Assembly (NCBI GenBank): GCA_028293425.1
Contig: JAQGOV010000111.1
Coordinates: forward strand, 1-45,616
Length of the DNA: 45,616 nucleotides
Source of the DNA: Verrucomicrobiales bacterium
GTDB lineage: Bacteria; Verrucomicrobiota; Verrucomicrobiia; Limisphaerales; JAQGOV01
Reading direction: 5' to 3'
Numbering within the stretch: the stretch's first letter is position 1; every line of letters begins with the position of its first letter. Under the pieces are notes generated by a model. The model did not search any database and was not told the DNA's origin. It saw only the letters and a program-made list of their open reading frames with translations. This document shows, one piece after another, positions 33,980 through 37,183 of the stretch. The position numbers were made by a program, and so were the translations under genes.

Positions 33980-35548
33980 TCAAGGCTGGGGACGTTTCTT
34001 TCGCGGGGCGTGACCATTCCCGAGGAAACGATTTACCGCGTTCAAATAAGCGCGTGCGCTGGCTTCAATCACATCTGTGCTCGTCCCTTTGCCTGTCACC
34101 AATTCGCCGTCCCCAAAGTTGGCTTTAATCGTGACTTCACCCAAAGCATCCTTACCTTCAGAAACAGCGCGGAGAGCATAATCCATCAGCTTGCCCCGCG
34201 TCTCAGTGATGCGATCGATCGCTTTCAAAGCTGCATCCACGGGGCCATCCCCAATGCTGGCATCCGTGATGGGCTCAGCGTCTTTCACCGCGGTTCTCCT
34301 GAGCCGAACTGTCGCGGTCGGAATGGATTGGCTGCCGCTAGTGACGCTGAGGTAATCAAGCGACCAGACTTCGGGCACCTCGGTAATTTGACCCTCAACG
34401 AGCGCGGTCAAGTCGTCGTCATACACGAATTTCTTCTTGTCACCGATTTCTTTGAATCGTGCGAAGATACCCTGCACCTCCTGTTCGTTCATTTTGAAGC
34501 CGAGGTGCTTTAAACGGACGCTCAAAGCAGCGCGTCCGCTGTGCTTGGTCAAAGGCAACTCGGTTTGGAGCCAGCCCACTTCCCGTGGATCCATGATCTC
34601 GTAGGTTTCGCGCTTCTTGAGGATGCCGTCCTGGTGAATGCCGCTCGAATGAGCAAAAGCGTTCTCGCCCACAATGGCCTTGCTCCGCTGCACCACGAGG
34701 CCGCTCATGCGGGAAACCAGCCGTGAGGATTTTACAATTTCGCGCGTATCGACTCCGATGCTCATACCTTGGAAAAAATCGGGCCGAGTCTTGATAGCCA
34801 TGGAGATTTCCTCGAGCGCGGCGTTCCCGGCACGCTCGCCAATGCCATTAACGGTGCATTCCACTTGGCGGGCACCATTGCGAACGGCCGATAGGGAGTT
34901 CGCTACCGCAAGCCCAAGGTCATTGTGGCAATGGACGCTGATGATCGCTTTGCCATTTTGGAATTCAGGCACTGATTCGTAAAGATGCTTGATGAGAGCG
35001 CCGTATTGATCCGGAACGGCCCAGCCGACAGTGTCCGGGACGTTTACAGTGGTTGCACCCGCGGCCACAACCGCTTTGCAGACTTCCACGAGGAAATCCG
35101 GTTCCGTGCGCGAGCCATCCTCAGGCGAAAACTCTACATCGTTCACGAAAGACTTCGCGCGTTTAACCCCATCGACTGCGAGGCGGATGATCTCGTGTTG
35201 GGCCTTGCCAAGCTTGAACTCACGGTGAATCTTGGACGTGGCGAGGAAAACGTGGATGCGTCCGCGCTTTCCCGCGGGCTTCAGCGCATTTCCTGCCGCG
35301 TCAATATCCTTTCCCACGCACCGGGCGAGACCGCAAATGACAGGACCCTTGATCTCACGGGCAATGGTCTGGACCGACTCGAAATCGCCGTCGCTAATGA
35401 CAGGGAAGCCAGCCTCAATGATGTCGACCTTCAACCGGGCAAGTTGGCGGGCCACTTCCAGCTTTTCGCGCAAGTTCATGGAAGCACCAGGACATTGTTC
35501 GCCATCGCGAAGCGTTGTGTCGAAGATGAGGATACGATTATCTTTCAT
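33980..35548 (-). CDS. leuA: 2-isopropylmalate synthase / citramalate synthase family (LeuA-like)
   Basis: [73 protein letters not shown]-terminal allosteric domain. Confidence 0.95.
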
Positions 35549-35592
35549 ATATATGTTTTGTTATGGCGGTGCGGCCTCAGCATTACAAAAGC

Positions 35593-35625
35593 AAAAACCC
35601 CACCGCCGGTTCAGGCAGTGGGGTT
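35593..35625 (-). terminator. Attenuator terminator upstream of leuA (3:4 hairpin)
   Basis: Minus strand AACCCCACTGCC-TGAACC-GGCGGTGGGGTT-TTT: 12-bp stem with one G.U pair, followed by U-run. Confidence 0.88.
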
Positions 35626-35645
35626 TGGAAACTCGTCTTAACGCG

Positions 35646-35720
35646 TCAACACCCAACCGCCGCTGTGCACAGCAGCAGCGCGCTCAGACCGAGCAGTCGA
35701 GTGTTAATATTCCAAATCAC
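35646..35720 (-). CDS. leuL: Putative Leu-rich leader peptide (VIWNINTRLLGLSALLLCTAAVGC, GTG start)
   Basis: 24 codons with 6 Leu, including CTG CTC and CTG CTG CTG; stop is 20 nt before the terminator hairpin; in-frame TGA just upstream of the GTG. Confidence 0.72.
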   Translation of the reverse strand: MIWNINTRLLGLSALLLCTAAVGC

Positions 35721-35797: not shown

Positions 35798-37183
35798 CTA
35801 GTCGAACATCTTGCCCGGGTTCAGAATTCCTTTTGGGTCGAGTGCGCGTCGCAGTTCGCGCATCACCCGCATCTGGGCGGCACCAGCAAATTTTGGGAGG
35901 ATCTCCTTTTTGGCAATACCCACCCCATGCTCGCCTGTCACCGTTCCGCCGAGCCGGATCGCTTCCTCGAGAATCTCACGAAATGCCTCATGCACTCGTT
36001 GCATTTCCTCCTTGTTCCGTTCGTCGGTCAGGAAGGTGGGATGTAGATTGCCATCCCCCATATGGCCGAAGGTTCCCACACGCAGCTTGTATTTTTTCGC
36101 CACCGCTTCGACATAACGAACCATGCGCGCCAGTTCGCTGCGAGGCACCGTGGCATCCTCCAGGATTGTTGTGGGAGCGAGTCGAGCCAGGGCGGAGAAA
36201 GCAGAGCGTCGTGCGTTGGCCAGTTGAGTCGCTTCGGCCTCATCCTTGGCAACACGCACTTCCATACAACCTTTTTCACGGCAGATCTTTTCCATTTGCG
36301 CCGCTTCATCCGCCACGGCTGCTGGATGCCCATCTGTTTCGATCAGGAGCAAAGCTTCGCAGTTTAGAGGCAAGCCGATTTTCGCGTAATCCTCCACGCA
36401 ATGAATCGTGGTGCGATCCAAAAACTCAAGCGTGCAGGGGATGATCTGCGCTGCGATAATGGCAGAGACAGCATCGGCTGCATGATCCATCTGGGCGAAG
36501 GTTGCCACCATGGTTTTCTTTGCAGCCGGTTTGGGAATGATTCTGAGCAACACTTTGGTAATCACCCCCAGGGTGCCTTCAGAGCCCACGAATAAATCCT
36601 TGATGGAATAACCGGCCACATCCTTCACGCATTTATTCCCGGTCCAGAGAATTTCTCCATCGGGCAACACAATTTCCAAACCCATCACGTAGTTGCGGGT
36701 GATGCCGTATTTCAGCCCCCGCAACCCGCCTGAATTCTCCGCCACGTTCCCGCCAATCGTGGAAATTTTCATCGAGCCCGGGTCCGGTGGATAGAAAAGG
36801 CCCACAGCAGCCGCGGCGTCCGCGACAGCCAGGGTAGTCACGCCCGGTTCCACGAGCATGGTGAGATTGGCTCGATCCACCTCTAGGATGCGGTTCATCT
36901 GAACGGTGCAGAGGACAATGCAGGAACTCACCGGCAGGCTGCCGCCGCTCAGGCCTGTCCCTGAACCCCGGGTGACCACGGGCACGCCGTGCTCGTTGGC
37001 CAACAGCAACACCCCTCGAATCTGTTCCGTGCTCGTGGCGAATACCACGCAGCCTGGCATCGCTTGAAGTGCGGCTGTTCCATCGAAGGAATAGGGGATA
37101 AGGTCCTCAGGCTGCGTCAGAACGTTTCTGTGACCAAGCAAACGTTTCAGGCTATCGAGCACACTTTGCGACAAATGAGTCAT
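35798..37183 (-). CDS. glcD: FAD-linked oxidase, GlcD-like (glycolate/D-lactate dehydrogenase family)
   Basis: VVTRGSGTGLSGGSLPV, DPGSMKISTIGGNVAENSGG, FGHMGDGNLHPTFL, GTVTGEHGVGIAKKE. Confidence 0.93.
   Translation of the reverse strand: MTHLSQSVLDSLKRLLGHRNVLTQPEDLIPYSFDGTAALQAMPGCVVFATSTEQIRGVLLLANEHGVPVVTRGSGTGLSGGSLPVSSCIVLCTVQMNRILEVDRANLTMLVEPGVTTLAVADAAAAVGLFYPPDPGSMKISTIGGNVAENSGGLRGLKYGITRNYVMGLEIVLPDGEILWTGNKCVKDVAGYSIKDLFVGSEGTLGVITKVLLRIIPKPAAKKTMVATFAQMDHAADAVSAIIAAQIIPCTLEFLDRTTIHCVEDYAKIGLPLNCEALLLIETDGHPAAVADEAAQMEKICREKGCMEVRVAKDEAEATQLANARRSAFSALARLAPTTILEDATVPRSELARMVRYVEAVAKKYKLRVGTFGHMGDGNLHPTFLTDERNKEEMQRVHEAFREILEEAIRLGGTVTGEHGVGIAKKEILPKFAGAAQMRVMRELRRALDPKGILNPGKMFD

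Follow-up and report, generated by a model that had tools for sequence, protein, structure and literature searches.

A predicted leader-peptide attenuator upstream of leuA in the Limisphaerales (Verrucomicrobiota)

The leader of leuA in a Verrucomicrobiales bacterium is very probably a ribosome-mediated transcription attenuator that senses leucyl-tRNA. It lies in a window of 45,616 nucleotides (the whole stretch of DNA that was analysed), and we document here its anatomy, its conservation, the covariation of its helices, and the specificity of its codons. Comparison with related genomes indicates an attenuator of the classical kind, present across the order and one of at least three such in these genomes. 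The Limisphaerales are soil and freshwater Verrucomicrobia known mostly from metagenome-assembled genomes, and the results bring an order of Verrucomicrobiota, on comparative evidence, within the range of leader-peptide attenuation. The mechanism itself is already known from other phyla, with attenuators also reported in Bacteroidetes and Thermotogae; for this lineage it is new, as far as we found.

Anatomy of the leuA leader

The sequence-only reading of this DNA had proposed a complete leucine attenuator with three mutually exclusive pairings, and all of its elements were located where it had placed them, upstream of leuA. The product of this gene is recognized by two profiles, NF002086 (747 bits, cut-off 532) and TIGR00973 (708 bits, cut-off 598.7). 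The features of the locus are the following.

35755-35728, minus strand: predicted promoter, sigma-70-like, from consensus matching
35755-35750, minus strand: -35 box TTGACC, followed by a 16-nt spacer
35733-35728, minus strand: -10 box TATGTT, 7 nt from the GTG of the leader ORF
GTG at 35720 to TGA at 35646, minus strand: leader ORF, fMet-IWNINTRLLGLSALLLCTAAVGC and stop, 24 codons with 6 Leu, predicted leaderless
35685-35696, minus strand: Leu codon cluster 1 (codons 9, 10, and 12)
35670-35678, minus strand: Leu codon cluster 2, CTGCTGCTG (codons 15-17), part of segment 1
35657-35682, minus strand: 1:2 anti-antiterminator hairpin, with several registers
35682-35675 with 35668-35661, minus strand: 1:2 in the register conserved across the order, 6 of 8 pairs formed in the window
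35678-35670 with 35665-35657, minus strand: 1:2 in the register of the sequence-only reading, 9 bp
35707-35646, minus strand: longer 1:2 hairpin preferred by RNAfold, which buries segment 2 too
35651-35661, minus strand: segment 2, GGCGGTTGGGT, within the last codons of the ORF, antiterminator partner of segment 3
35614-35626, minus strand: segment 3, AAACCCCACTGCC, common to antiterminator and terminator
35595-35607, minus strand: segment 4, GGCGGTGGGGTTT, 3' arm of the terminator
35585-35594, minus strand: U-rich tail of the terminator, TTGCTTTTGT
33980-35548, minus strand: leuA, 2-isopropylmalate synthase of 522 aa, the regulated gene, from profile scores

The terminator (35626-35595) has 13 of 13 pairs and a loop of 6. 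It ends 46 nt short of the leuA ATG, and no second terminator-like site was found in 600 bp. An RNAfold run, proposed along with the original reading, showed that the 141-nt leader folds far better than shuffled sequence, at 4.3 standard deviations below it (z -4.3). The 9-bp pairing put forward for 1:2 is indeed present, but it is one option only, since RNAfold favours the hairpin 35707-35646 and the register kept across the order differs.

The transcription start was placed by consensus matching only, and the GTG of the leader ORF is predicted to lie at this start, giving a leaderless mRNA. The predicted promoter (35755-35728) stands upstream of the hairpins, not downstream of them, and its geometry is kept in relatives: of the 43 leaders aligned, 42 have TTGAC at a distance of 35-41 nt from the start codon, and one has it at 45 nt. 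The GTG would be read as fMet; a leaderless start was absent from the sequence-only reading.

Conservation and covariation in the Limisphaerales

We took leuA orthologues from 47 Limisphaerales loci and applied a uniform scan that demands a promoter, an ORF of 15-36 codons, and a terminator; 45 of the 47 pass. The usual layout in these relatives has a TTGAC -35 box with an ATG or GTG mostly 35-41 nt downstream, an ORF of 21-25 codons, and a terminator stem 16-28 nt past the stop. A covariance model based on 43 leaders matches 175 of the 196 genomes of the order, including 105 of the 111 high-quality ones, while among 388 genomes sampled across the phylum only two have a strong score, both of them Limisphaerales. 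Searching 85,462 GTDB species for the exact pattern returned 23 sites. Judging from record titles, nearly all belong to Verrucomicrobia, subdivision 3, Pedosphaera or Limisphaerales; the exceptions are one under Proteobacteria and one named just 'bacterium'. At high score the leuA leader is single-copy in its own genome. A second model match there (G000:C317, 27.5 bits) was put down to chance, as it lacks Leu enrichment and stands before an unrelated ORF, and the weak matches outside the order (25-36 bits) were mostly ordinary terminators.

These matches bear on another view of the hairpin. The upstream neighbour of the leader is glcD, on the same strand and ending at 35798, so that the hairpin might be the plain terminator of glcD, with the ORF and the antiterminator arising by chance. 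Its proximity and orientation fit this view, but a predicted promoter lies between glcD and the hairpin, and the element is tied to leuA: all 19 exact-pattern sites examined precede leuA, as do 18 of 19 strong model matches examined, the remaining one being at a contig end. Together with the conservation of the ORF, its codons, and the 2:3 pairing, this makes a glcD terminator extremely unlikely.

The helices were tested on a MAFFT alignment of the 43 leaders that was not fitted to any structure. In the 1:2 helix 81.7% of cells are paired, and 18 cells are changed on both sides yet still pair; for 2:3 the figures are 81.6% and 19, and for 3:4 they are 96.7% and 24. None of 500 shuffles, which keep relatedness as is, matched these values for any of the three helices, and when the partner is slid along the alignment pairing falls to 22-60%. 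The terminator is the most conserved part of the leader. The three exclusive pairings that had been read from a single sequence are thus present and kept in relatives with compensatory changes, and the same holds for the runs of Leu codons, whose conservation had been named as a check.

We also compared the pairing with that of synonymous recodings of the ORF. The 2:3 duplex reaches -17.4 kcal/mol against -12.2 in the recodings (standard deviation of the mean 0.54), and the 1:2 region -17.6 against -11.5 kcal/mol (standard deviation 0.48). Recoding loses much of both, so the peptide sequence does not by itself account for the pairing. In the middle of helix 2:3, a mismatch between columns 72 and 112 is conserved in 38 of the 43 leaders; it may keep the antiterminator weaker than the terminator.

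Leucine makes up 30% of the residues of the 43 leaders, in two clusters, against 6.8% in leuA coding regions. Counted from the stop, it is found at codons -16, -15, and -14 in 39, 28, and 32 of the 43 leaders, and at codons -10, -9, and -8 in 40, 36, and 25. There is no Leu in any of the 43 at codons -7 to -3, the site of segment 2. A ribosome stalled at the Leu clusters, which lie upstream of segment 2, would therefore leave most of this segment open, and a ribosome at the stop would cover it. The ORF appears to be translated, judging from gap lengths in relatives: all 11 distinct gap blocks in the ORF alignment are multiples of 3 (lengths 3, 6, and 9), whereas in the spacer that follows the stop only 3 of 10 are, with lengths from 1 to 9. 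An apparent bias in Leu codons (CTG-rich and CTC-poor relative to leuA) was dropped because other genes of the window are CTG-rich too.

A model for the switch and its known counterparts

The comparative tests favour the attenuation reading, with read-through upon leucine starvation being the step that we infer. The model outlined here covers the start site, the loading of the ribosome, its stalling, the timing, and the response to leucine, all worded as expectations. RNA polymerase would start at the GTG of the leader ORF or a few nt from it, and a ribosome would load on the 5' end of the RNA without a Shine-Dalgarno site. When leucine is ample, the ribosome would reach the stop codon and cover segment 2, so that 3:4 pairs and transcription ends before leuA. 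When leucine is low, the ribosome would stall at either Leu cluster, breaking 1:2 and freeing segment 2. The freed segment would pair with segment 3 ahead of the synthesis of segment 4, and the polymerase would continue into leuA. If the leader is not translated, 1:2 would form and the terminator would win.

We simulated this switch on the nascent RNA of the 43 leaders, folded up to the last base of segment 3 with the stretch under the ribosome masked. The ribosome was assumed to cover the RNA from 16 nt before to 14 nt after the first base of the A-site codon. The median probability of 2:3 is 0.07 with no ribosome and 0.00 with a ribosome at the stop, against 0.82 with a ribosome stalled at cluster 1 and 0.83 at cluster 2. 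For the leader of the window, the corresponding values are 0.00 (no ribosome), 0.00 (stop), 0.82 (cluster 1), and 0.35 (cluster 2). In wider leader sets under the same masking, the probability of 2:3 is high on stalling and low at the stop in all four sets. Without a ribosome it is not uniformly low across these sets; leuA2 leaders have a median of 0.83 in this state, and termination is not clearly favoured. In the full-length RNA at equilibrium, 3:4 forms nearly always, and the terminator is present in 37 of 43 leaders even with a stalled ribosome. Since the terminator wins at equilibrium once segment 4 is present, the decision of the switch must be kinetic and taken during transcription. Known attenuators likewise decide kinetically.

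Rfam models were searched against the window, with no family match at the gathering threshold and chance matches only at relaxed thresholds. Ten related loci had no match to a leader family and a single tRNA, and no T-box model matched the leuA leader. The search for Leu leader families suggested at the outset was thus run and gave no family match, and the leuA leader defines an RNA family absent from Rfam. RF00512 (Leu_leader) and its relatives are the amino-acid attenuators of the leuL/trpL type of enterobacteria. Our leader resembles this type in its short ORF of cognate codons, its exclusive 1:2, 2:3, and 3:4 pairings, its U-tailed terminator, and the cognate biosynthetic gene downstream. 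It differs in lacking an Rfam match, in its predicted leaderless start, and in having the stop codon at the end of segment 2.

Closer in target are the leaders of Actinobacteria. Their LEU element, a pseudoknot whose base stem joins the Leu codons to the Shine-Dalgarno box of leuA, without a typical terminator, shares with our leader the leuA target and the Leu codon run (PMC1262725, PMC8079986), and the leader ORF of Streptomyces lividans leuL is leaderless (PMC1262725, PMC8079986). Unlike them, the leader described here has a conserved terminator/antiterminator pair, with an intrinsic terminator. For these actinobacterial leuA leaders, which carry Leu runs without a typical terminator, control through translation or Rho has been proposed (PMC1262725, PMC8079986), and one may ask whether the Leu codons studied here are likewise sensed mainly through translation or Rho-dependent termination instead of the intrinsic terminator. 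We regard this as very unlikely, because a U-tailed terminator of 13 pairs, placed 46 nt before the leuA start codon, is the part of the leader that relatives conserve best.

A leaderless start is common to our attenuator and to Sinorhizobium meliloti trpL, whose attenuator RNA begins at the ATG of the leader ORF (PMC7298713), but the latter has tryptophan codons, targets trpE, and belongs to an alphaproteobacterium. Corynebacterium glutamicum has leaders before leuA, ilvB, aroF, and trpE, and its ilvB attenuator combines a terminator, an antiterminator, and an anti-antiterminator (PMC3890552, PMC11857589). The target genes are largely the same as here in another phylum, except that trpE has a leader there and in none of the 24 loci of our set. 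Branched-chain synthesis in Staphylococcus aureus is described as controlled by a Leu-rich leader peptide attenuator combined with CodY (PMC5794164); likened by that description only, it has the Leu-rich leader in common with ours, but it is found in a Firmicute and works with CodY. According to a survey of 2010, Proteobacteria and Actinobacteria had been the only groups with known leader-peptide attenuation, to which the survey added Firmicutes (PMC2965389). In line with the sequence-only reading, which knew of no described case in this lineage, our search on Verrucomicrobia and attenuation, mostly in literature outside subscription journals, found no description, and an earlier mention is possible.

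Other leaders of the order and a second LeuA type

Under the same uniform rule, leaders are found before other biosynthetic genes of the order. Val-rich leaders precede ilvB in 25 of 30 loci, and leaderless leaders rich in Phe, Tyr, and Trp precede DAHP synthase in 15 of 21 loci (L190-L209), whereas none was found before trpE (0 of 24 loci) or hisG (0 of 19). These counts per gene show that the enriched amino acid follows the pathway. When 1.6 Mb from one complete Limisphaerales genome was scanned blindly on both strands, only 15 matches came up, and three of the six best are the leuA, ilvB, and DAHP synthase leaders. With so few matches, and attenuator leaders making up three of the best six, the rule is specific. 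In the genome of the window, the DAHP synthase gene (L197) has an aromatic leader ORF and no clear terminator. The ilvB leader of this genome (L126, on G000:C698, locus 1220-1390) is leaderless, with a Val run MNPIRQAIAAVVVVVCDEAVGACRE, a long apparent antiterminator pairing GCTTGTCGA with TTTCGACAA, and a terminator.

The change of residue with the downstream gene also speaks to the role of the peptide. The ORF of the window ends in LLLCTAAVGC, which looks like a lipobox: its hydrophobic Leu run and terminal Cys are reminiscent of the signal sequences of lipoproteins. The ORF also appears from its gap pattern to be translated, and together these features might point to a functional small peptide that is secreted or lipidated. 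Such a function has next to no likelihood in our judgement: most of the leader ORFs end in F, L or V and few in Cys, the enriched residue is Leu, Val or Phe depending on the gene that follows, and synonymous sites are constrained for RNA pairing.

Returning to attenuation, about half of the order has another LeuA, of the NF002991/TIGR00970 type and about 27% identical to the first. The leuA leader precedes this second type in 15 of 19 loci by the uniform rule, or in 17 counting two identified by eye, which indicates that it is kept before two distantly related LeuA enzymes. One leader before two distant enzymes of the same step is a clean evolutionary case. We consider it likely that the Limisphaerales have a regulon of leaderless, Shine-Dalgarno-independent attenuators (Leu for leuA, Val for ilvB, and Phe-Tyr-Trp for DAHP synthase) and, jointly, that the leuA leader is a module kept or copied when LeuA was swapped for a distant relative. 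This suggests a whole circuit on leaderless transcripts, in which the ribosome would bind the 5' end directly. One genome (G062) has both LeuA types with one copy of the leader before each. In another (G554), which has two copies of the leader, it stands before a first-type LeuA.

Outside this order but within the class, 8 of 28 loci have leuA leaders that resemble these in design and differ in sequence; none was found in families f64 and f65. In these eight (L129, L132-L134, L138, L139, L142, and L148; for example MNRNLNLLLALLALLLTRQTAG) the terminator sequence differs as well. Finally, isolated likely attenuators occur in other families of the phylum (L055, L057, and L064): one with MSFINNSFFYYFFSCFAYFYYRK upstream of DAHP synthase, one with a Leu-rich ORF in front of LeuA, and one with MKLTLVVLLVKVVVVVVTS upstream of acetolactate synthase.
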